NCBI RefSeq assembly: GCF_001598055.1
Contig: NZ_CP014844.1
Coordinates: 3,003,642 to 3,067,641, forward strand
Reading direction: 5' to 3'
From: Cupriavidus nantongensis
GTDB lineage: Bacteria; Pseudomonadota; Gammaproteobacteria; Burkholderiales; Burkholderiaceae
Length of the DNA stretch: 64,000 bases
The notes below the pieces were generated by a model, which was not told where the DNA came from, ran no database searches, and saw only the letters and a program-made list of their open reading frames with translations. Below are positions 18,506-62,226 of the stretch, piece by piece (position 1 is the first letter of the stretch; every line of letters starts with the position of its first letter). Position numbers and translations under genes: made by a program.

Positions 18506-19327
18506 TCAGAGAAAAATCAGCATCAGCGCGGCCAGCGGGAACACCGGCAGCAAGGCGTCGATGCGGTCCAGCACGCCGCCATGGCCGGGCAGCAGCCGGC
18601 TGCTGTCCTTCTTGCCGACCTGGCGCTTGAGCAGGGATTCGAACAGGTCGCCCACCACGCTGGCCGCGACCAGCAGCGTGGTCAGCGCGGCGACGAAGCC
18701 TAGCCCGCCGCGGTCGCCCATCACCGAGAACCAGGTCGGGGCAAAGGCATGGGTGGCCGCCAGCGCGAGGCCGATCGCCAGCGCCAGCAGCCAGCCGCCG
18801 ATGGCGCCTTCCCACGACTTGCCCGGGCTGATGCCGGGCGCCAGCTTGCGCCGGCCGATGGCCTTGCCGGTGAAATACGCGCCGATATCGGCGGCCCATA
18901 CCAGCACCGCGGCGGTCAGCAGCACGCCGATGCCGGCGCCGCGCAGGACCATGGTGGCATGGGCAAACGCGGGCAGCATCACCAGCCCCAGCACCGCGCC
19001 CAGCGCGGTGAAGGCCGGGGTCGCGGTGCGCACGCCGCGCGCCAGCAGCACCACCGCAACGCCCCAGCACACCACCGCGGCCTCGAGCAGCCAGGTGATG
19101 GCGTGGCGCTGCGGCAGGTCATGCCAGGTCATGGTGGCGATCAGGCAGGCCAGCGCATAGACATAGGGCCACGGCCCGCGCAGTCCGATCAGGCGGCCGA
19201 ATTCCCAGCCGGCCAGCAGCACGATCACGCCGAGCAGTCCCGCCAGGCCCGCCGGCGGCGCCAGGAACAGGATCGGCAGGATCAGCAGCAACAGGCACAG
19301 GGCGGTGATGACGCGGGTGAGGAGCAT
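18506..19327 (-). CDS. cdsA: Phosphatidate cytidylyltransferase (housekeeping)
   Basis: 273-residue polytopic enzyme making CDP-diacylglycerol from phosphatidic acid and CTP. About eight membrane helices; the C-terminal signature is complete: [20 protein letters not shown] followed by GGVLDRID. Placement between uppS and dxr is the classical one, so this is the essential copy. A second, divergent CdsA-like gene lies at 55098-56060. Confidence 0.96.
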
Positions 19328-52992: not shown

Positions 52993-54000
52993 TTACTCCA
53001 GCGTGATGCCGACATCGCGGATAATGCGGCTCCATTTGTCGCGGTCGTTCTTCATCACGGTGGCGAAGGCCTCCGGCGTGCTGCCCACTGGCACCAGGTT
53101 CAGGTCCTGCATCTTCTTTGCGATCTCCGGCAGGCGCACGATGCGCGCGACCTCGCGCGACAAGGCATCGACCCGCGCCTTGGGCACGCCGGCCGGGAAC
53201 AGCAGGCCCATCCATGCATCGGGCTCGAAGCCCTGGTAGCCGGCCTCGCGGAAAGTCGGCACCCTGGGCAGCAGGGTCGAGCGCTCCGCCCCGGCAAGCG
53301 CCACCGGCACCAGCTTGCCGCCCTGCAGCAGCGGCATCGCCGTGCCCACGGCAATAAAGCCGAGCTTCACATGCCCCGCCGCCAGGTCGGTGGCGAGCGG
53401 CGCGCCGCCCTTGTACGCCACGTGCTCCATCTGCAGGCCGGCCTCGCGCTTGAAAAGCTCGCCCAGGATATGCCCGGTGGTGCCGGCGCCGTACGAGCCA
53501 TACGGGTACTTGCCGGGATTGGCCTTGAGCAGCGCCACCACCTCCGGCAGCGTGCGCGCGGGAAAGTCCGGCGACACCGCCAGCATGGTGGACGAGATCG
53601 CGACCTCGCTGACCGGCGTGAAATCCTCGATCGGGTCATAGCCGATGCCGCGGTACAGCGACGGGTTCTGCACGTGCGCGGTAAACGTGAGCAGCGCGGT
53701 GTAGCCATCCTTCGCCGCCCTGGCGACATGCTTGGTGCCGGTGGTGGTGCCCGCGCCGGGCTTGTTGTCGACGATCACGGGCTGGCCCCAGCTTTTGGTC
53801 AGCTCCTGCCCGATCAGCCGCGCCACGGCATCGTTGACGTTGCCCGCCACCGACGGCACCACGATGGTCAGCGGCCGCGACGGATAGGGTTCGGCAGAAC
53901 CGGGATCGGCAGCCGCGGCTGCGGCCGGCATCACGCTGGGAACGGCCGCCAGCAACATGGCGGCCACGGCTGTACGCAGCCGCGCGGAACGGTAAGGCAT
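52993..54000 (-). CDS. Bug family (TctC) periplasmic substrate-binding protein
   Basis: 335-residue Bug receptor, signal peptide 1-29 (AAMLLAAVPSVMPAAAAAAD). Binding segments YPSRPLTIVVPSVAGNVNDA and VIVDNKPGAGTTTGTKHVAR match the family though the usual PPGG is changed to SVAGN, suggesting a different ligand from the first Bug in this window. It is divergent from the LysR gene and heads a Bug-MDR-CoA-transferase operon of three genes with gaps of 10 to 13 bp. Confidence 0.92.
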   Translation of the reverse strand: MPYRSARLRTAVAAMLLAAVPSVMPAAAAAADPGSAEPYPSRPLTIVVPSVAGNVNDAVARLIGQELTKSWGQPVIVDNKPGAGTTTGTKHVARAAKDGYTALLTFTAHVQNPSLYRGIGYDPIEDFTPVSEVAISSTMLAVSPDFPARTLPEVVALLKANPGKYPYGSYGAGTTGHILGELFKREAGLQMEHVAYKGGAPLATDLAAGHVKLGFIAVGTAMPLLQGGKLVPVALAGAERSTLLPRVPTFREAGYQGFEPDAWMGLLFPAGVPKARVDALSREVARIVRLPEIAKKMQDLNLVPVGSTPEAFATVMKNDRDKWSRIIRDVGITLE

Positions 54001-54184
54001 CGCTTTGTCTCCTGTCCTTGGCTCCCTTCTGTAGCGCCGCTGCGGTGTCCACTGCGATGCGGTGCGCGAGGGATGCCAGGCAGTCTAGGCCAGCGTCCGG
54101 GCCGGCGCGATTCCCGCGCGGCGCGAGCCGAGTCCTGGCAGGCATGGCGCTACAATGGCCCGCACCCCCAGCGCCTTCCCGCCC

Positions 54185-55084
54185 ATGCGATTCGAGGATC
54201 TAGAAGCCTTCCTGGTCGTGATCGACCAGGGCAACCTGCACCGCGCCGCCGAGACCCTGAGCATGACCCAGTCCGGGCTGTCCAAGACCCTGGCGCGGCT
54301 GGAAGGCGAAGCCGGCATGCCCTTGTTCGAGCGCACACCGCGCGGGCTGGTGCCGACCGGCGCGGGCCGCACCCTGGCCGCGCATGCGCGCCGGATCTCG
54401 CTCGCCGCCGGCGACATGCGCAGCGAACTGGCCGAGCAGCGCGCCGCGCGCGCGGGCACGGTGCGCCTGGGCGCGATCCCCTACCTGCTGCCGTCGCTGC
54501 TGTCGCCATTGCTGGCGCGCTTCTTCCTGAGCCGGCCGCTGGCGACGTTCTCGATCGAGACCCACCTGAGCGCGCGCCTGATGGCGATGCTGCAGAACGG
54601 CGAAGCCGACCTGATCCTCGCGGCACGCCCCGCCAGCGTGCCAACGGAGGTTGCCTGGCTGCCGCTCGGCCCGCTCAGCATGCAGATCGTGTGCCGCAGC
54701 ACCCATCCGCGCCGCGACGGCTTTCGCACGCTGGCCGACCTTGCGGGAGAACGCTGGGTGGTGCCGGCCAGCTCGCTGTACCTGCGCCAGTGGCTGGAAG
54801 AACGGTTTACCGCGGTCGGGTTGCCGCCGCCGCGGGTGGCGGTGGAAAGCACGGCGTCGCCGGTCGCGTTCGGCGAACTGCTGCGGCACTCCGACCTGCT
54901 CGGCATCATGCCGCCGCGCATGCTGCGCCAGGCCGAGGGCCAGGGGCTGGCCGCGATCGAGGCGCCGGGCACCTCGTGGCAGCACGAACTGGCGGTGCTG
55001 TGGCGCGCCGACGGCTACCTGTCGCCGATCTGCCAGGACTTCCGCGATGCCGTGGTGGCGTGGTGCGAAGAGATGGCGTTGTAA
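54185..55084 (+). CDS. LysR family transcriptional regulator
   Basis: 299-residue LysR regulator. Winged helix at residues 1-60 (RFEDLEAFLVVIDQGNLHRA, then TQSGLSKTLARLEGEAGMPL), then a periplasmic-binding-like effector domain. Divergent to the Bug-MDR-CoA-transferase operon, which it probably controls. An in-frame ATG at 54155 would add ten residues, but TACAAT at 54151-54156 looks like a -10 and would leave that codon untranscribed. Confidence 0.92.
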   Translation: MRFEDLEAFLVVIDQGNLHRAAETLSMTQSGLSKTLARLEGEAGMPLFERTPRGLVPTGAGRTLAAHARRISLAAGDMRSELAEQRAARAGTVRLGAIPYLLPSLLSPLLARFFLSRPLATFSIETHLSARLMAMLQNGEADLILAARPASVPTEVAWLPLGPLSMQIVCRSTHPRRDGFRTLADLAGERWVVPASSLYLRQWLEERFTAVGLPPPRVAVESTASPVAFGELLRHSDLLGIMPPRMLRQAEGQGLAAIEAPGTSWQHELAVLWRADGYLSPICQDFRDAVVAWCEEMAL

Positions 55085-55097
55085 GGCCCCGATCGGC

Positions 55098-56060
55098 TCA
55101 GGCCACCCACCAGTAGCGCGTGATGTGGAAGAACACCGGCGCGGCGAACACCACCGAGTCGAGCCGGTCGAGCATGCCGCCGTGGCCCTGGATCATGTGG
55201 CCCCAGTCCTTGATGCCGCGGTCGCGCTTGATCGCCGACATCACCAGTCCGCCGAGGAAGCCCATCAGCGCGATCACCAGCGCGATCGCGCCGGCCTGCC
55301 ACGGCGAGAACGGCGTGATCCACCACAGCGCCGCGCCCAGCGCGGTGGCGCTGGCAACGCCGCCGACAAAGCCTTCGACGGTCTTGGACGGCGACAGCAG
55401 CGGCGCGATCTTGCGCTTGCCGCACAGCTTGCCCCACACATACTGCAGCACGTCGCTGCCCTGCACCACGATCACCAGGAAGGCGATCAGCAGCAGGTTG
55501 CGCCCGTCGAAGCCCGGGATCGGCAGCGTCAGCAGCGCCGGCACGTGCGAAATGCAGAACACGCACACCATCACCGCCCATTGCACCCCGGCGCAGCGCT
55601 CCAGGAAGCGCGTGGTCTCGGACGACAGCGCCGCCAGGATCGGCAGCACCAGGAAGGCATAGACCGGGATCAGGATCGAGAACATGCCATACCAGCCGAT
55701 ATAGACCAGCACGTACTGCAGCGGCAGGAACACGAAGAACGCGGCGACGATGGCGCGATGGTCGCCGCGCCGCGTGGTGGTGATGGTGACGAACTCGCGC
55801 AGCGCGAAGAACGACAGCAGGTAGAACAGCACGATCACCGCGGTGCGCCCCAGCGCAAAGGCCACGCCCATGATGCCGATCATCCACCACCAGGCCGACA
55901 CGCGCTGCCCCAGGTTGTCGATCACCGCGTGCTGGCCGCCGCCCGCGACGCGCCAGCGCAGCAGCGCGGTCACGGTGGAAGCGAGCAGCAGCACGCCGAA
56001 CAGGCCGCCGAACAGCAGCCAGGTTTCGCGGCTCCAATGCAGGGTGGGCATGGCGTTCAT
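55098..56060 (-). CDS. CdsA-like phosphatidate cytidylyltransferase (second copy)
   Basis: 320-residue polytopic enzyme (about eight helices) of the CdsA family, longer than the housekeeping CdsA at 18506-19327. The C-terminal signature is intact: SAIKRDRGIKDWGHMIQGHG then GMLDRLDSV, with SPSKTVEGFVGGV before it. Predicted to convert phosphatidic acid to CDP-diacylglycerol. It is the last gene of the six-gene lipid operon, joined to the acyltransferase by an ATGA overlap (start 56060), so its CDP-DAG is probably meant for the CDP-alcohol phosphatidyltransferase at 60270. Confidence 0.92.
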   Translation of the reverse strand: MNAMPTLHWSRETWLLFGGLFGVLLLASTVTALLRWRVAGGGQHAVIDNLGQRVSAWWWMIGIMGVAFALGRTAVIVLFYLLSFFALREFVTITTTRRGDHRAIVAAFFVFLPLQYVLVYIGWYGMFSILIPVYAFLVLPILAALSSETTRFLERCAGVQWAVMVCVFCISHVPALLTLPIPGFDGRNLLLIAFLVIVVQGSDVLQYVWGKLCGKRKIAPLLSPSKTVEGFVGGVASATALGAALWWITPFSPWQAGAIALVIALMGFLGGLVMSAIKRDRGIKDWGHMIQGHGGMLDRLDSVVFAAPVFFHITRYWWVA

Positions 56061-56683
56061 TCCAGTTCCGGGGCCAGCGCGAGCAGGCCCTCGCGGCAGC
56101 GCGCAAGGAAGGCTTCCTTGCTGTCGTCGGCGGCCAGCCGCAGCGGCTCGCCGAAGGTCACGGTGCACAGCAGCGGCACCGGCACCACTTCGCCCTTGGG
56201 CATCACGCGGTTCAGGTTGTCGATCCACACCGGCACGAACTCGACCGCGGGACAGGCCCGCGCCAGGTGGTAGATGCCGCTCTTGAACGGCAGCAGGCGC
56301 GCGTCGGTGGTGTTGCGCGTGCCTTCGGGAAACAGGATCAGCGAATCGCCCGCCGCCAGCCCGGCCTGCATCAGCGCCACCGGGTCGCTGCCGGGTTCGC
56401 TGCGGGTGCGGTCGATCAGCAGCGCGCGGAACACGTCGCGGCCGATAAAGCGCCGCAGCGGCGATTTCTGCCAGTAATCGGCGCCCGCCACCGGCCGCGT
56501 TACCGTGCGCAGGTCGGGCGGCAGGCAGCCCCAGATCAGCACGAAATCGCCGTGGCTGCTGTGGTTGGCAAAGTAGACGCGCTGCACAGCGGCCGGGATG
56601 CAGCCCTGCCAGTTGGCGCGCATGCCCGTCAGCAGCCGGGCGAAGACGATGATGGCGCGCGCGGTGGCGCGGGCAAGCCACAT
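56057..56683 (-). CDS. 1-acyl-glycerol-3-phosphate acyltransferase (PlsC family)
   Basis: 208-residue membrane acyltransferase. Motif I NHSSHGDF gives HX4D at His41/Asp46; motif III FPEGTRNTTDARLLPFKSGI follows; EFVPVWIDNLNRVMPKGEV is the phosphate-binding region. One N-terminal helix anchors it. It should acylate lysophosphatidic acid or a related lyso-lipid. It lies 6 bp after the small membrane protein gene and overlaps the CdsA-like gene. Confidence 0.9.
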   Translation of the reverse strand: MWLARATARAIIVFARLLTGMRANWQGCIPAAVQRVYFANHSSHGDFVLIWGCLPPDLRTVTRPVAGADYWQKSPLRRFIGRDVFRALLIDRTRSEPGSDPVALMQAGLAAGDSLILFPEGTRNTTDARLLPFKSGIYHLARACPAVEFVPVWIDNLNRVMPKGEVVPVPLLCTVTFGEPLRLAADDSKEAFLARCREGLLALAPELE

Positions 56684-56689
56684 GGTTGG

Positions 56690-57133
56690 TTACCTCAGGA
56701 TCAGCGATAGCAAGGCCAGCAGCAGCTGGCACACGGTCAGTACGGCGCTGGCGCGTACCAGGCGCAGCGCGCCGCGGGCGCGCTCCGGCAACGGGCGCGC
56801 GGCGCGCGCGGCGGGCATCCAGCCCAGTTCGAGCAGTGCGGCATCGAGTCCGCTCAGGTCGGACTGACCTTGCGCGCCAGTGGCGAGCGCACCGAACAGG
56901 CGGCGGTCGATCGCGACGCGCAGCAGCAGCCACAGCTGGGGCAGCGCCAGCAGCAACGCCAGTGCCGCCGGCCAGCGCGACATCGCGGTGCCCGCACCCA
57001 GCCCAGCCGCCAGCATGGCGAACGCCAGTCCGGCCGCGCCGATCCACGCGGCTCCAGCCAGCGCGCCCGTTACCGCGTGCGCGATCCAGGCGTCGGTACG
57101 TTGCACGACACCAGCGTCCCGGTCAGCGGCCAT
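56690..57133 (-). CDS. Small membrane protein of the lipid operon
   Basis: 147-residue protein with no family I recognise. Helices are predicted at about 20-45 (VTGALAGAAWIGAAGLAFAM), 55-75 (WPAALALLLALPQLWLLLRV) and the C-terminus (ASAVLTVCQLLLALLSLILR). A cytoplasmic loop has DAALLELGWMPAARAARPL. The start at 57133 overlaps the end of the phosphatase gene by 11 bp; upstream Mets at 57157 and 57187 are possible. Its constant position suggests a scaffold or accessory for the lipid enzymes around it. Confidence 0.8.
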   Translation of the reverse strand: MAADRDAGVVQRTDAWIAHAVTGALAGAAWIGAAGLAFAMLAAGLGAGTAMSRWPAALALLLALPQLWLLLRVAIDRRLFGALATGAQGQSDLSGLDAALLELGWMPAARAARPLPERARGALRLVRASAVLTVCQLLLALLSLILR

Positions 57134-58499
57134 CGCCAGGCTCCTGGATAGCGGCATGATCCAGCCAACGCTGCAACGCTTCGGCATGTTCGGGCCCGAG
57201 CACCACCGCCGGCCGATGCCGGCGCAGCGCCGCCAGCGCCGCGCCGGCGTCGCGCAGCCCCTGCCGTCCCGCCAGCCACGCCGCCGCGACCAGCGCGCTG
57301 CGCGAATAGCCCAGCGCGCAACTGACCAGCACGCGCTGTCCCTGCCGTTCCCAGGCGTCGAGCTGCGCCACCGCCTGCGCGAGCTGCTGCGGCGTCGGCA
57401 CGGTCAGGTCCAGCACGGGCACGCAGCGATAGGCGAGACCTGGCGCCGTGGCTGCGCGCGGCAGCTCGGCGCTGAGGTCAAGCACGGCATCAGCGCCAAG
57501 CGCGCGCAGCTCGGACGTTGTCGGGAAGCGGCCCACCCAGACACCCGGCGCAATCGGGCTGGCCTGCGGCGCGCGCCGCGTCCACCAACGTGAATTGATG
57601 AACGCGCCCAGCAGGTAAGGCGCCAGCACCCAGCGCGCGGCCGGGGCCATGGTGCCATCGCCATCCTTCTGGAACCACGCCGGCGCCGCCAGTGCGTAGA
57701 TGCGTGCCACGCAGGCCAGCGCCAGCGCGGCCCACAGCAGCAGGAACGCCAGCGTCACCGATGCGCCCACCGCCAGCACCGCGCACAGCAGCGCCACCAG
57801 CGCGCCCAGGCCGTAGCGGCGCGACAGCTGCCGCGTGCGCGCATCGGGCGCGCCGGCGGCGGCCGTGGGCAGCTGCATCGGCAACAGGTAGACGCACAGC
57901 CAGCCCACCAGCGCGCCGGTGGGCACGTCGATCAGGTGATGCTGCCAGGTGGTCAGCACCGACACCCCGATCAGCGCAAACCAGCCGTGCAGCAGCCAGC
58001 GCCAGCCGCCGCGCAGGTGCGCCGCGAAGGCGACCCACAGGATCACCAGCAGGCTGATATGCAGCGACGGCGCCTGGTTGAACGGCAGGTCGAAGCCGCC
58101 CAGCAGCGTGAACAACTGGCCCGGCAGCCCGTCCGCAGCGGGCCGCGCAAAGCTGAAGCGCAACGGGAAGGCGATAAAGCACGCCACCGACACCAGCTGC
58201 GCCAGCACCAGCCGCTTCACGTGCGTCAGCAGCGCCGCGCGGCTGCGCCACAGGAAGAACGAGATGCCATACAGCAGGTCGATCGACCAGTACGGCACGA
58301 TGGTCCAGGGCAGGAACGGAATGCCCCGCTCCCATTCGTAGTAGAACGAGGGCACGTCGGCGCGCTGGCTCGCCAGCCAGTTGGCGAAGCCATAGCTGGA
58401 GAAGAAGAACGCGCCGGCCAGCGCCAGCAGCAGGCACGCCAGGCCCCACGGCCGCCGCGGCTGCAGCCCGGCGCCCGCCTGCGTCGGCACCGTGCTCAT
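57123..58499 (-). CDS. PAP2 (IPC-synthase-like) and dual-specificity phosphatase fusion
   Basis: 458-residue two-domain protein. Residues 20-275 are six or more membrane helices with PAP2_3-type motifs: RFSFARP (114-120), APSLHISL with His147, and TWQHHLIDVPTG with His188 and Asp191, the layout of inositol phosphorylceramide synthases. Residues 318-440 are a cytoplasmic dual-specificity phosphatase: VWVGRFPTTSELRALGADAV, general-acid Asp364 in VLDLTVPTP, and catalytic VSCALGYSRSALVAAAWL with Cys394 and Arg400 (CX5R). PTPMT1-like DSPs dephosphorylate phosphatidylglycerophosphate or phosphoinositides. Start at 58499 overlaps the upstream gene (ATGA). Substrate inferred, not known. Confidence 0.88.
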   Translation of the reverse strand: MSTVPTQAGAGLQPRRPWGLACLLLALAGAFFFSSYGFANWLASQRADVPSFYYEWERGIPFLPWTIVPYWSIDLLYGISFFLWRSRAALLTHVKRLVLAQLVSVACFIAFPLRFSFARPAADGLPGQLFTLLGGFDLPFNQAPSLHISLLVILWVAFAAHLRGGWRWLLHGWFALIGVSVLTTWQHHLIDVPTGALVGWLCVYLLPMQLPTAAAGAPDARTRQLSRRYGLGALVALLCAVLAVGASVTLAFLLLWAALALACVARIYALAAPAWFQKDGDGTMAPAARWVLAPYLLGAFINSRWWTRRAPQASPIAPGVWVGRFPTTSELRALGADAVLDLSAELPRAATAPGLAYRCVPVLDLTVPTPQQLAQAVAQLDAWERQGQRVLVSCALGYSRSALVAAAWLAGRQGLRDAGAALAALRRHRPAVVLGPEHAEALQRWLDHAAIQEPGDGR

Positions 58500-60265
58500 G
58501 CGCCGCGCCTGCGCGCCAGGCTGACGGTGAAGATGCCCCACGGGTCGATGCGCTGCGTGACCTTGTCGAAGCCGGCGGCCCGCACCAGTTCGTCCATCTC
58601 GGCCTGCGAGCGGCGCCGCATCACCCAGGCGGCGCCGGCGCGATGGCTGGTCAGCGCGCGCGCGATGAATTCCAGCTGCGGATGCCAGGGCTGGCCGGTA
58701 TAGACCAGGTAGCCGCCCGGCGGCACCGCGCGCGCCAGCCCGTCGAGCGAGCGCCGCACCATGGCGTTGTCGGGGAACAGTTCGTACAGGCCGGACACCA
58801 CTGCCAGCGTCGGCGCGGGCGCCAGCGCGGCCAGGCTGTCGCCGTCGAAGGCATCGCCCTGCTCGAAGCGGGCCACGCCCTGCAGGCCCTTGGCGGCAAT
58901 CAGCGCGCGGCCCTGCTCCACGTTCAGCGCGCTGTAGTCGCGCAGCAGGATCGACTCGACCGCGCCCGCGCCGCCCTCCAGCGCACCCAGCGCTTCCAGC
59001 ACGTAGCGCCCATGGCCTGCGGCGATATCGACCATGCGCACCGGCATGCCGGCCGCGCGCAAGCGCCGCACCGCGTCGGCGATCAGCGCCTCGGCGTGTG
59101 TCTTGCGCTGGCGGATGCCGCGCCAGCCGATCGCGTCCAGGTATTGCCGGTCGGCCAGCCGGCCCGGCGCGCCGCGGCCGGACGGCGTGTTGCGGTAAAC
59201 GTAGTCAAGCGTCGAGCCCGAGTCGAAGCCGGTCTGATGGCCCAGCCGCACCCCGTCCGACAGCATCCCGCCCAGCTTCAGGTTGGCCCGCGCCGCGCGC
59301 CAGTACCAGGCGGCCAGCGCGCCAGGCGCAGACGCCAGCCGGTCCGCCTCCTCGCGGAACGGGCCGATGTGGTCGGCATCGAGCAGCGAGCGCGGCGCCG
59401 ACGGCGTGTCGAATTCGCGCAGGATAAAGCGGCGCGCGGCATCGACCGCCGGCTTGCGGTGCCGTTCGCCGAGGGTGTCGTGGTAGAAGCCGTCCAGCAC
59501 GATGCGCTCCTTGGTACGCGAGCCCAGGCGCTCGTAGAAGCGGTCCTGCGGCCCGCGGTGCACCACCCAGTCGGCGCCGGAGATCAGCAACTGCGTCGGC
59601 ACCGTGATCGCGGCCGCATCGGCGACGATGCGCTCGGCGGTCTGGTACAGGTCGAGCAGGATATTGACCGCGATCGGGCGCGTGATCAGCGGATCGCTGT
59701 CATAGCTGGCGATGCGCTCGGGATCGTGGGTCAGGAATTTTGCCTTGACGTAGCTGTTGACGAAGAACTTGCCGCGCAGGCGCTGCATCAGCTTCAGCCC
59801 CGGCCGCGCGAACGGCACGTACAGCTTGACCTTGAACGCCGGCGACGCCAGCACCAGCGCGCGGATCGGCGGCGCGTAGTCGTGCACCCAGGTCGCGGCC
59901 AGCACCGCGCCCACGCTCTGCGCAACCACCGCGGTGCGCTCCAGCGGGATGCCATGCACTTCGGCGATATGCGCGGTAAAGGTCTGGATGTCGCGCACCG
60001 AATCGGCCAGGCTGGGGCTGTAGCCGCGCTCGCCGGGCGAATTGCCATGGCCGCGCGCGTCCCAGGCAAAGATGTCGTGGCCGGGCAGGTTGAGCTCGTC
60101 GGCAAGATGCGCAACCCGGCCGGAGTGCTCGTGGCCGCGGTGGAACAGCAGCACGGCGCCGCGCGCCGGCCCCTCTAGCGCGGGCCAGTGGCGATAGAAA
60201 ATCGCCTGGCCGTCGTGGGTCTCGAATTGCCGCTGCAGCGGCTGGCGGGAAGACGGTCGGTCCAT
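58496..60265 (-). CDS. Alpha/beta-hydrolase and SAM-methyltransferase fusion
   Basis: 589-residue bifunctional protein. Residues 1-300 are an alpha/beta hydrolase resembling monoacylglycerol lipases: VLLFHRGHEHSGR (oxyanion region), FAWDARGHGNSPGERG, nucleophile Ser117 in VVAQSVGAV (first Gly of GxSxG replaced), Asp in LLISGADWVVHRG and His in LDGFYHDTLGERH. Residues about 390-589 are a class I methyltransferase: RMVDIAAGHGRYVLEALGAL is the SAM motif, followed by LAVVSGLYELFPDN. It lies 4 bp after the CDP-alcohol phosphatidyltransferase. A lysophospholipase step and methylation of a head group are both possible; neither is shown. Confidence 0.88.
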   Translation of the reverse strand: MDRPSSRQPLQRQFETHDGQAIFYRHWPALEGPARGAVLLFHRGHEHSGRVAHLADELNLPGHDIFAWDARGHGNSPGERGYSPSLADSVRDIQTFTAHIAEVHGIPLERTAVVAQSVGAVLAATWVHDYAPPIRALVLASPAFKVKLYVPFARPGLKLMQRLRGKFFVNSYVKAKFLTHDPERIASYDSDPLITRPIAVNILLDLYQTAERIVADAAAITVPTQLLISGADWVVHRGPQDRFYERLGSRTKERIVLDGFYHDTLGERHRKPAVDAARRFILREFDTPSAPRSLLDADHIGPFREEADRLASAPGALAAWYWRAARANLKLGGMLSDGVRLGHQTGFDSGSTLDYVYRNTPSGRGAPGRLADRQYLDAIGWRGIRQRKTHAEALIADAVRRLRAAGMPVRMVDIAAGHGRYVLEALGALEGGAGAVESILLRDYSALNVEQGRALIAAKGLQGVARFEQGDAFDGDSLAALAPAPTLAVVSGLYELFPDNAMVRRSLDGLARAVPPGGYLVYTGQPWHPQLEFIARALTSHRAGAAWVMRRRSQAEMDELVRAAGFDKVTQRIDPWGIFTVSLARRRGA

Positions 60266-60269
60266 CGCG

Positions 60270-60896
60270 CTACTCCGCAAGGCGCGAGTGGGCCTCGGCA
60301 ATGCCGCGGCGCACCCGGTTGGCCATCGTCAACAGCGACAACAGCGACAGCAGCAGCCACAGCCAGCTGGCGGCCGCGCCGAAGCCCAGCCCCAGGCCGG
60401 CCCACAGCGCGATCGCGCCGATTGCGAAGGCCCGGTCGCTCTTGCCGAGCGGGCCGTCGTAGCGCCGGCTGGCGCCGGCCAGCGGCCCGATCAGCCCGGC
60501 GGCCTCGACCAGCAGCGCCAGCAGCGCGAAGGTACCGACCTGCCCCAGGCTGAAACCGGGCAGCGCGGCCAGCGGCAGGATCAGCGCCAGGTCCGAGACC
60601 ATGTCGCCCAGCTCGTTCAGGTAGGCGCCCAGCACGCTCTGCTGGCCATGCTCGCGCGCCAGCATGCCGTCGATGGCATTGAGCGCCATGCGCCCGAACA
60701 ACCACAGCGGAAACAGCAGGAACAGCGCCGGGGTCTCGGCCACCTGCATGCCCAGCGTGGCCAGCACGCCGACCGCGAGCGAGCCGGCGGCCGCGGCCAG
60801 CGTGACCTGGTTGGCGGTCACGCCGCGCTGCGCCAGGTCTTGCACCATGGGGCGCAGCCAGGCCTGGAACCTGGGTTTCAGTTCATAGAGCGTCAT
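60270..60896 (-). CDS. CDP-alcohol phosphatidyltransferase family protein, variant active site
   Basis: 208-residue membrane enzyme of the PgsA/PIS family. The family motif D-x2-DG-x2-AR-x8-G-x3-D-x3-D appears as NAIDGMLAREHGQQSVLG then AYLNELGD: the first and third Asp are Asn73 and Asn94, while Asp76 and Asp98 remain. Both changed positions normally bind metal or substrate, so the chemistry or acceptor should differ from PgsA. Five or six helices. The ATG at 60896 was chosen over the long upstream frame, which has no membrane or family features. First gene of the six-gene lipid operon. Confidence 0.9.
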   Translation of the reverse strand: MTLYELKPRFQAWLRPMVQDLAQRGVTANQVTLAAAAGSLAVGVLATLGMQVAETPALFLLFPLWLFGRMALNAIDGMLAREHGQQSVLGAYLNELGDMVSDLALILPLAALPGFSLGQVGTFALLALLVEAAGLIGPLAGASRRYDGPLGKSDRAFAIGAIALWAGLGLGFGAAASWLWLLLSLLSLLTMANRVRRGIAEAHSRLAE

Positions 60897-61092: not shown

Positions 61093-62163
61093 CTAGGCGG
61101 ATGCGATGGTGCTGCGCACGGCGTCGGCCACCTGCGCGACCACGCCGTCGCGCCAGTCGTCGGCATCGCCGTAGAAGGCGCGCCACATCGCCTGGCGCAC
61201 CAGCGCGCGCTGGTTTTCGTCGGCCTCGGGATGCCGGTGCAGCCAGTGGTCGCCGCGCAGCGCGTCGAGCACCTCGCCCACCGGCAGCGTGCCGAACTCG
61301 AGCGCGATGCCGGCGTAGTCCACCGCCGGCAGGGTCTGCGGCACCGCGTGCCAGGCCAGCCCGGTCAGGTTGGCCGAGGTCGACGAGCCATCGTAGATCG
61401 AGGTCACGCGCTCGCCCCAGATCGCGCGCGTGCGCGTGATCGACTCGGTCGTATCCGGGCCCATGTGGATCGGTTCGCCGTAGCCCCACGGGCCCAGGCC
61501 GGTATGGATATCGATCCAGCGCAGCGCCGCGCGGCCGGCGCCGAAGCGCGCCAGGATGCGGCACAGCGTGTAGTTGCTCCAGGTAGCCTTGTCGCCGCCG
61601 TAGAACATGCCGTCCGGATCCTGGTACTGGCCGCTGCTGACCGCGGCCTGGTACCACGCCATGCCGCGCTCGGCCACCGCCTTCATCAGCCGCGCCTGGT
61701 CGGCCTCCGACGGCGGCCATTGCGCCGGCAGCAGCAGCGGCGCGATTTCCGCATAGGCGGCGTTGTGCGGCAGCGGCTGCGAGAAATCCATGAAGTTGCG
61801 GTTCAGGTCGACGTTGTCCTCGTTGACCCGGCGCAGGTGCGAGAAGCCATAGGGATTGACCGCGTGCACCAGCAGCAGGCAGGCATCGGCGGCGGCGCAA
61901 TCGGCAAGCAGCGCGGCGTCATGCAGCAGCGCCGTTTGCGCGCCGGAGCCGGCAAAGCCCTCGGCACCGTGCGTGCCGGAGGTCACCATGATGCAGCGCC
62001 GGGCCTCAGGCGCGCCGGCCAGCGCCACGTCGATCGCCAGGTCTTCGCCGGCGCTGCCGCGCTTGGTGGGATGCGGAAATTGCGCCAACGCGGCGCCCGC
62101 GGCGCGGGCGGCGTCCAGGAAGGCCTGGCGCGCTTCGGCGTAGCTGCGAGAAAAATGGCTCAT
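61093..62163 (-). CDS. DUF2817 (M14-like) protein
   Basis: 356-residue cytoplasmic protein of the DUF2817 family, related to zinc carboxypeptidases. Zinc-ligand candidates are in MVTSGTHGAEGFAGSGAQ (His, Glu) and RWIDIHTGLGPWG (His); HAVNPYGFSHLRRVNEDNVD matches the substrate Arg/Asn region of M14 enzymes; ALEFGTLPV could hold the catalytic Glu. Substrate unknown, probably a peptide or acyl amino acid. The ATG at 62163 is preferred over 62202. It lies upstream of the lipid operon with a 196-bp gap, so it is not clearly co-transcribed. Confidence 0.85.
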   Translation of the reverse strand: MSHFSRSYAEARQAFLDAARAAGAALAQFPHPTKRGSAGEDLAIDVALAGAPEARRCIMVTSGTHGAEGFAGSGAQTALLHDAALLADCAAADACLLLVHAVNPYGFSHLRRVNEDNVDLNRNFMDFSQPLPHNAAYAEIAPLLLPAQWPPSEADQARLMKAVAERGMAWYQAAVSSGQYQDPDGMFYGGDKATWSNYTLCRILARFGAGRAALRWIDIHTGLGPWGYGEPIHMGPDTTESITRTRAIWGERVTSIYDGSSTSANLTGLAWHAVPQTLPAVDYAGIALEFGTLPVGEVLDALRGDHWLHRHPEADENQRALVRQAMWRAFYGDADDWRDGVVAQVADAVRSTIASA

Positions 62164-62226
62164 GGCGTCACCCGCGGATGCGATGCAGGCATTAAACGCC
62201 AATTCGGCGGGTCTCGCCAGTCGCGG

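Follow-up and report, generated by a model that had tools for sequence, protein, structure and literature searches.

Six tightly coupled genes lie on the minus strand at positions 55098-60896 of the window, the 64,000-nucleotide stretch of the Cupriavidus nantongensis genome (7.1 Mb in 3 contigs) that was analysed here. In order of transcription they encode a CDP-alcohol phosphatidyltransferase resembling YnbA and Arc1A (A; 60270..60896, 208 aa), a YnbC-like fusion of an S33-type alpha/beta hydrolase with a methyltransferase of family PF12147 (C; 58496..60265, 589 aa), a YnbD-like fusion of a PAP2-like membrane part with a dual-specificity phosphatase (DSP) (D; 57123..58499, 458 aa), a small membrane protein that belongs to no known family (s; 56690..57133, 147 aa), a PlsC-type acyltransferase (P; 56057..56683, 208 aa) and a YnbB-type CDP-diacylglycerol synthase of the CTP_transf_1 family (B; 55098..56060, 320 aa). 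The successive spacings from the ynbA-like to the ynbB-like gene are +4, -4, -11, +6 and -4 bp, which together with the Pfam assignments upholds the initial annotation of six coupled genes of these families. The ynbA-like product matches CDP-OH_P_transf at 21.5 bits as the annotated protein (cut-off 22) and at 22.4 bits in the genome search, the ynbC-like product matches Hydrolase_4 and Methyltransf_20, and the last two genes match Acyltransferase (PlsC-like) and CTP_transf_1 (CdsA/YnbB-like). For the ynbD-like product DSPc scores over its cut-off and PAP2 under it (19.1 against 27.2 bits), while the PAP2_3 domain originally assigned to this protein was not returned by Pfam at E 0.01. The small protein has no Pfam match, and a scan of 23 of its members gave only two family matches, each in one member and at E >0.06. 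Nevertheless, R72, D76, D97, R113, R118 and Q136 are invariant across the 23 aligned sequences.

No RNA element reached the Rfam gathering threshold between positions 54000 and 62500. Terminator-like sites number 8 against a shuffle mean of 1.8 and fall nearly all within genes, and the same scan found no promoter-like site. The DNA upstream of the operon, compared among 11 Cupriavidus sequences, shows little conservation outside the closest ones. Against a library of anti-phage systems YnbC alone was matched, by two weak matches in the methyltransferase region.

Judged by identities of 47.5% (YnbA), 61% (YnbC), 40% (YnbD) and 36% (YnbB), four of the operon genes have their orthologues in E. 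coli ynbA, ynbC, ynbD and ynbB. Gene order differs, being ynbA-ynbB-ynbC-ynbD in E. coli MG1655 and A-C-D-s-P-B in Cupriavidus, and unlike the Cupriavidus operon the K-12 run has neither PlsC nor the small gene, so both may be dispensable for the core of the system. In the annotation of a copy on an E. coli plasmid the order reads A-B-PlsC-C. All six genes, with the same families in the same order, are found in a genome of the Pseudomonas aeruginosa group (G577, assigned through an azurin query, at 98% identity the best of 398 genomes), where identities to Cupriavidus are 57% for A, 68% for C, 54% for D, 38% for s, 57% for P and 69% for B; YnbC-type matches in this genome comprise a single full-length gene and two that are partial and weak. 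In P. aeruginosa, PA2541-36 have been described as arc1A-F, antagonism resistance cluster 1 (Ting et al. 2022, PMC8926400). The Cupriavidus operon appears to fit arc1A-F, with PA numbers and families matched through the available text of that paper and G577 rather than through PAO1 itself. The gene content that marks the arc1/ynb cassette is found in Cupriavidus, namely a YnbC-type fusion beside a CDP-alcohol transferase, a PAP2-DSP fusion and a YnbB-type CdsA. The operon is real and conserved, and adds another copy to a cassette already known and widespread.

That the locus has its own pathway to a special phospholipid, as first suggested, remains a reasonable reading of linked genes, but the idea is not new. 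The available text of PMC8926400 relates five of the six arc1 genes to phospholipid biosynthesis or metabolism, describes four as homologous to phosphatidylglycerol synthesis enzymes, places the genes of the core enzymes elsewhere, and already infers a specialised phospholipid pathway tied to defence. A wholly new pathway is accordingly rejected, the cassette being published as arc1 and annotated as ynbABCD in E. coli. What is new here is the link between ynbABCD and arc1, along with an asparagine pair in YnbA that is combined with a likeness to PIP synthases. Neither PMC8926400 nor PMC12663445 contains the string 'ynb' in its main text, and the comparison joins two lines of research, one on E. 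coli ynbB and MPIase and the other on arc1 defence in Pseudomonas.

Linkage of these genes was followed through 80 loci, the best 80 of 549 confirmed relatives, the closest named loci being Cupriavidus species with up to 98% identity in YnbC. Of the 80, 75 bring together the A, C, D, PlsC and CdsA genes, in the order ACDsPB in 62, ACDPB in 11, ACDBP in 1 and with a divergent B-P beside ACDs in 1. Four of the five incomplete loci (L011, L030, L053 and L069) stop at a contig end after their last gene, and the true exception is a Thiobacillus MAG contig (L057), on which neither PlsC nor CdsA appears in the 1.7 kb beyond C-D-s, and ynbA would fall off the contig. The small gene went undetected by search in 12 loci; in 11 of these a fitting open frame follows D by eye, with L019 the sole one lacking it, and three of the 11 (L051, L084 and L086) show the invariant residues of the small protein when aligned. 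Across the 75 loci the five genes A, C, D, P and B show correlated pairwise divergence (r 0.91-0.98), a figure that partly reflects shared species history.

Among 36 genomes of the genus, including that of the window, 24 carry C, D and B, each full-length, the other 12 have no full-length copy of any of the three, and scattered, unlinked genes were sought in these close relatives and not encountered. The 12 non-carriers include one genome that is only 54% complete (G012), one with a weak PAP2-like match (G006) and one in which fragments of ynbA and ynbB lie adjacent in what looks like a deletion scar (G031), while two carriers are damaged, with D split into two pieces with a stop (G013) or interrupted by one stop (G004). 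Beyond the genus the pattern has exceptions: of 24 genomes, three (G039, G040 and G051) have C, D and B, but two (G037 and G054) lack C and D while having a B-type gene, which adds to the exception of the Thiobacillus contig, and one (G048) has a partial D. In a class-wide sample, again including the genome of the window, PF12147 was found at E <1e-80 in 10 of 369 genomes and at E 0.001 in 16 of 369, and in each of the 10 strong cases the 3.8-3.9 kb examined contains one or more partner genes. These observations support inheritance of the operon genes as a unit, on an all-or-none basis within the genus. A plasmid collection yielded 29 records at E 1e-60, at least 3 of them chromosome-sized among the 25 listed, and the copies examined lie on a 19-kb Burkholderia ambifaria plasmid, a conjugative E. 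coli plasmid and a Rhizobium plasmid, suggesting that the cassette moves between lineages.

The Cupriavidus genome has two CTP_transf_1 genes. The second lies at window positions 18506-19327, within a run that reads tsf-pyrH-frr-uppS-cdsA-dxr-rseP-bamA when names are inferred from the Pfam families of the neighbours. This gene is the housekeeping cdsA, and the operon copy, which stands outside the uppS-cdsA-dxr-rseP-bamA run, is a YnbB-type paralogue. The operon had been placed beside the essential cdsA, which instead lies 36 kb away. In E. coli, YnbB makes CDP-DAG, is non-essential and is without the ability to complement a cdsA knockout (PMC6362211, available text). Its overproduction leads to more MPIase (PMC6362211; review PMC7018664), and a quite unlikely reading is that the operon makes or backs up an MPIase-type glycolipid, with the YnbB-type enzyme joining CDP-DAG to a sugar phosphate to give sugar-PP-DAG and the other genes processing the product. 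Such a role would agree with the failure of YnbB to substitute for CdsA in bulk lipids, and with the resemblance of YnbA to enzymes that use phosphorylated polyols. However, MPIase was unchanged in a ynbB knockout (PMC6362211), and ynbB, although among five hits of a transposon screen in a strain with only phosphoglyceride-linked ECA, was unneeded for that polymer (PMC8609368, as far as its available part reports). It also leaves unexplained the hydrolase-methyltransferase and DSP-PAP2 genes, which are linked with the YnbB-type gene in 75 of the 80 loci.

YnbA departs from its family at the metal site. In structures of CDP-alcohol transferases, four aspartates hold two metals (PMC6506517, PMC4634129, available text), within the class I CDP-alcohol phosphotransferase motif D1xxD2GxxAR...GxxxD3xxxD4. 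This motif is incomplete in YnbA, where Asn73 (codon at 60678..60680, minus strand) takes the place of Asp1 and Asn94 (codon at 60615..60617, minus strand) that of Asp3, each without exception in the 81 sequences of an alignment of the window, E. coli and 79 loci. Asp2, Asp4, the DG and the AR are invariant in the same alignment, as is Glu95, which adjoins Asn94. Solved chains of PIP synthase and cholinephosphotransferase have Asp at the positions aligned with both asparagines, and Asp stands at both places in all 3 other family members of the Cupriavidus genome. When 18 further loci were searched with the motif left open at both places, all 10 readable ones, including the P. aeruginosa-group genome and three plasmids, had N + N, and the remaining 8, mostly short stretches with the gene possibly outside, gave no motif. 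No earlier mention of the Asn pair was found in the mainly open-access literature searched; the initial annotation had likewise missed the two Asp-to-Asn changes.

Lacking two of the four metal-binding aspartates, YnbA may catalyse a central step that differs from the canonical reaction or does not occur. In the extreme case it would be a catalytically dead scaffold or sensor, and the operon would remodel existing lipids without adding a new head group. We regard this as improbable, since despite Asn at Asp1 and Asp3 in every sequence, the retention of Asp2, Asp4 (which serves PIP synthase as its catalytic base), DG and AR in all 81, of R194 in 81 and of R155 in 80, the remaining one being gapped, would be unexpected in a dead enzyme; moreover, P. 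aeruginosa strains in which arc1A is deleted show increased sensitivity to type VI attack (Tejada-Arranz et al. 2025, PMC12663445, available text). The model of YnbA (pLDDT 91.9) has the fold of a class I CDP-alcohol phosphotransferase. Its Foldseek search against the PDB gave 8 matches at E<=0.001, all PIP synthases, with a PGP synthase appearing only at E 0.07. The best PDB profile match is 6h53 (E 5.7e-8), and the best NCBIfam match is archaetidylinositol phosphate synthase, at 65 bits below a cut-off of 180. By fold and profile YnbA thus resembles PIP synthases, despite the Asn pair.

This resemblance bears on the acceptor. Arg155 and Arg195 of the M. tuberculosis PIP synthase bind inositol phosphate through the acceptor phosphate, according to the available part of the source, and they align, as do R155/R195 of 6h53, with R155 and R194 of YnbA. 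The acceptor of YnbA therefore probably carries a phosphate, as had been ventured for this locus, and a phosphorylated acceptor would also account for the phosphatase domain of YnbD. One known parallel is the bacterial pathway of PIP synthase and PIP phosphatase, with which YnbA shares the fold, the phosphate-binding Arg and a phosphatase gene alongside; the Cupriavidus system differs in that YnbA has two Asn for Asp and the genome has no inositol-1-phosphate synthase family. That family (PF01658) is absent from both the Cupriavidus genome and the E. coli control, which makes inositol an unlikely head group, and phosphatidylinositol was rejected as the product even though YnbA is PIP-synthase-like. 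Phosphatidylcholine was also set aside, an EcoCyc listing of YnbA for this lipid having later been removed (PMC3781023, available text).

The remaining enzymes keep most of their catalytic residues, with some substitutions. In YnbC, S117, D232 and H262 are kept in 82 of 82 sequences, as are the methyltransferase motif residues D413, G417 and G419, while Ala replaces the usual Gly of the nucleophile elbow in 81 of 82. Among solved structures related to the hydrolase part, monoacylglycerol lipases predominate. YnbD keeps H147, H187 and D191 in 82 of 82, and C394, R400 and D364 in 80, the other two having gaps; at the place of the PAP2 motif-3 Arg, Val stands in 81 of 82. These residues are read against the general PAP2 motif, and YnbD may resemble Aur1 or sphingomyelin synthase. 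Membership of YnbD in PAP2 is suggested by weak scores and this motif reading. The 50 matches listed of 591 in its fold search are all DSP-type phosphatases, with no PAP2 fold among them, and PTPMT1 is one of many relatives of the DSP domain. The PlsC-like protein has H41 and D46 in 76 of 76 sequences and an intact FPEGTR bar one F-to-Y change, and ten residues tested in the YnbB-type CdsA are identical in 77 of 77, these motifs being what we take to be signatures of the two families.

Taken together, the genes offer a candidate enzyme at each step from phosphatidic acid through CDP-DAG and phosphatidyl-X(-P) to phosphatidyl-X, in line with the route first proposed. PlsC would re-acylate lysophosphatidic acid to phosphatidic acid, from which the YnbB-type enzyme would make CDP-DAG, and YnbA would form a phosphatidyl-X-phosphate from this and a phosphorylated sugar or polyol, which is probably something other than inositol phosphate. 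The DSP domain of YnbD would then remove the phosphate to leave phosphatidyl-X, its PAP2-like membrane domain might move or remove phospho-X, and YnbC could cleave an acyl chain and methylate the product or the head group. The resulting lipid could aid survival of rivals' toxins by making the envelope a poorer lipase substrate or by draining lysolipids. The product, the order of the steps and the roles of the hydrolase and methyltransferase are ones that we infer, and the literature searched reports no lipid product for any orthologue. The Cupriavidus operon is orthologous to the ynbABCD/arc1 cassette, a lipid module that is non-essential and also plasmid-borne, and it fairly probably acts on CDP-DAG and a phosphorylated acceptor to make a lipid that helps the cell survive lipase toxins. 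A more specific version, possible but tentative, holds that YnbA proteins with N-D-N-D form a subfamily with a non-inositol acceptor which, with YnbD and YnbC, yields an undescribed, perhaps methylated, anionic lipid serving as inducible anti-lipase armour on chromosomes and plasmids, E. coli ynbABCD likewise. The two-asparagine motif is a sharp clue to this chemistry.

A defensive role has its basis in P. aeruginosa, where arc1 protects against type VI attack (PMC8926400) and arc1A contributes to resistance against the lipase effectors TseL and Tle1 in a role auxiliary to arc3A (PMC12663445). In the available text of PMC8926400, arc1 mutants are normal under detergent, heat, salt and peroxide stress, and no single effector mutation removes the arc1 defect. 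Another reading is damage repair, with PlsC and the hydrolase recycling the lysolipids left by phospholipase toxins and CdsA, YnbA and YnbD rebuilding ordinary phosphatidylglycerol. Resistance to TseL and Tle1, the homology of four arc1 genes to phosphatidylglycerol synthesis enzymes and the PlsC-type gene in 75 of 80 loci would agree with this, and the route of PgsA and a PTPMT1-type PGP phosphatase has in common with the operon a CDP-alcohol transferase and a DSP-type phosphatase. However, YnbA is nearer to PIP synthase than to PGP synthase in fold and profile, the operon adds hydrolase, methyltransferase and PAP2-like domains to the PgsA route, repair gives the methyltransferase no place, and PlsC is missing from E. 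coli K-12 ynbABCD, so that repair seems unlikely.

For the favoured reading of a special lipid against lipase toxins, a defence role in Cupriavidus is putative, by analogy with P. aeruginosa. There, arc1 is under Gac/Rsm control, although arc clusters are spread more widely than Gac/Rsm (PMC8926400), and a 2025 preprint (PMC11888443), in its available part, names Arc1-3 as Gac/Rsm targets and says no more. CsrA/RsmA (PF02599) and arc3A (PF10101), which belong to regulation and defence in P. aeruginosa, were both absent from the Cupriavidus genome, so the Pseudomonas regulation is not transferable to this host. If the cassette works in Cupriavidus, it would do so without the Pseudomonas regulator and partner, and we do not hold Gac/Rsm control to define the arc1/ynb family. 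Two candidate partners were rejected: arc3A, given its absence here and its presence in 13 of 25 cassette-bearing genomes searched (from 26 loci, with L046 left out), and TamB, which lies directly upstream in G577 but had no match at E 1e-20 in the 80 loci. A lipocone paper (PMC12419801) had, in its available part, no bearing on the operon.

The E. coli version of the cassette is widely kept. The K-12 operon DNA finds a match in 4579 of 5426 complete E. coli genomes, and in 4242 of them 80% or more of the operon is covered, which makes K-12 a simple host in which to seek the arc1 lipid.

The operon, which is on the minus strand of the window, is bordered downstream by genes for a regulator of the LysR type and for a TctC-type receptor (52993-55084) and upstream by a DUF2817 gene (61093-62202). 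Among the best 80 of 549 confirmed relatives by YnbC, 9 to 10 loci have these neighbours too, and the loci that share them belong to Cupriavidus in every case. In a genome of the P. aeruginosa group, a TamB-family gene (L137, 3104-6769) lies directly upstream of the cassette, and its protein has no match at E 1e-20 in the same best 80 of 549.

The cassette is also carried on plasmids, including a 19 kb plasmid of Burkholderia ambifaria (L143) and a conjugative E. coli plasmid (L144), the latter with the annotated order ynbA-, ynbB-, plsC- and ynbC-like genes, followed by an IS66 element. Relative to the ynbA-ynbC-ynbD-small protein genes, those for CdsA and PlsC are divergent both on the B. 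ambifaria plasmid and in a Paraburkholderia locus (L026). On a Thiobacillus MAG contig, unrelated small genes (L057, 3678-5408) follow ynbC, ynbD and the small protein gene in place of those for PlsC and CdsA.

The housekeeping cdsA, distinct from the operon's YnbB-type paralogue, lies on the minus strand at 18506-19327 of the window, within a run read from gene families as tsf-pyrH-frr-uppS-cdsA-dxr-rseP-bamA. The operon's small protein (gene at 56690-57133, minus strand) is a member of a family that no Pfam model covers, in which R72, D76, D97, R113, R118 and Q136 are invariant across 23 aligned sequences.

Within the same genus, genome G031 retains a remnant (L142, contig C4, 6204-6473) comprising only ynbA residues 11-81 adjoining ynbB residues 294-317. 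This side-by-side placement of the two fragments resembles what loss of the operon by deletion would leave.
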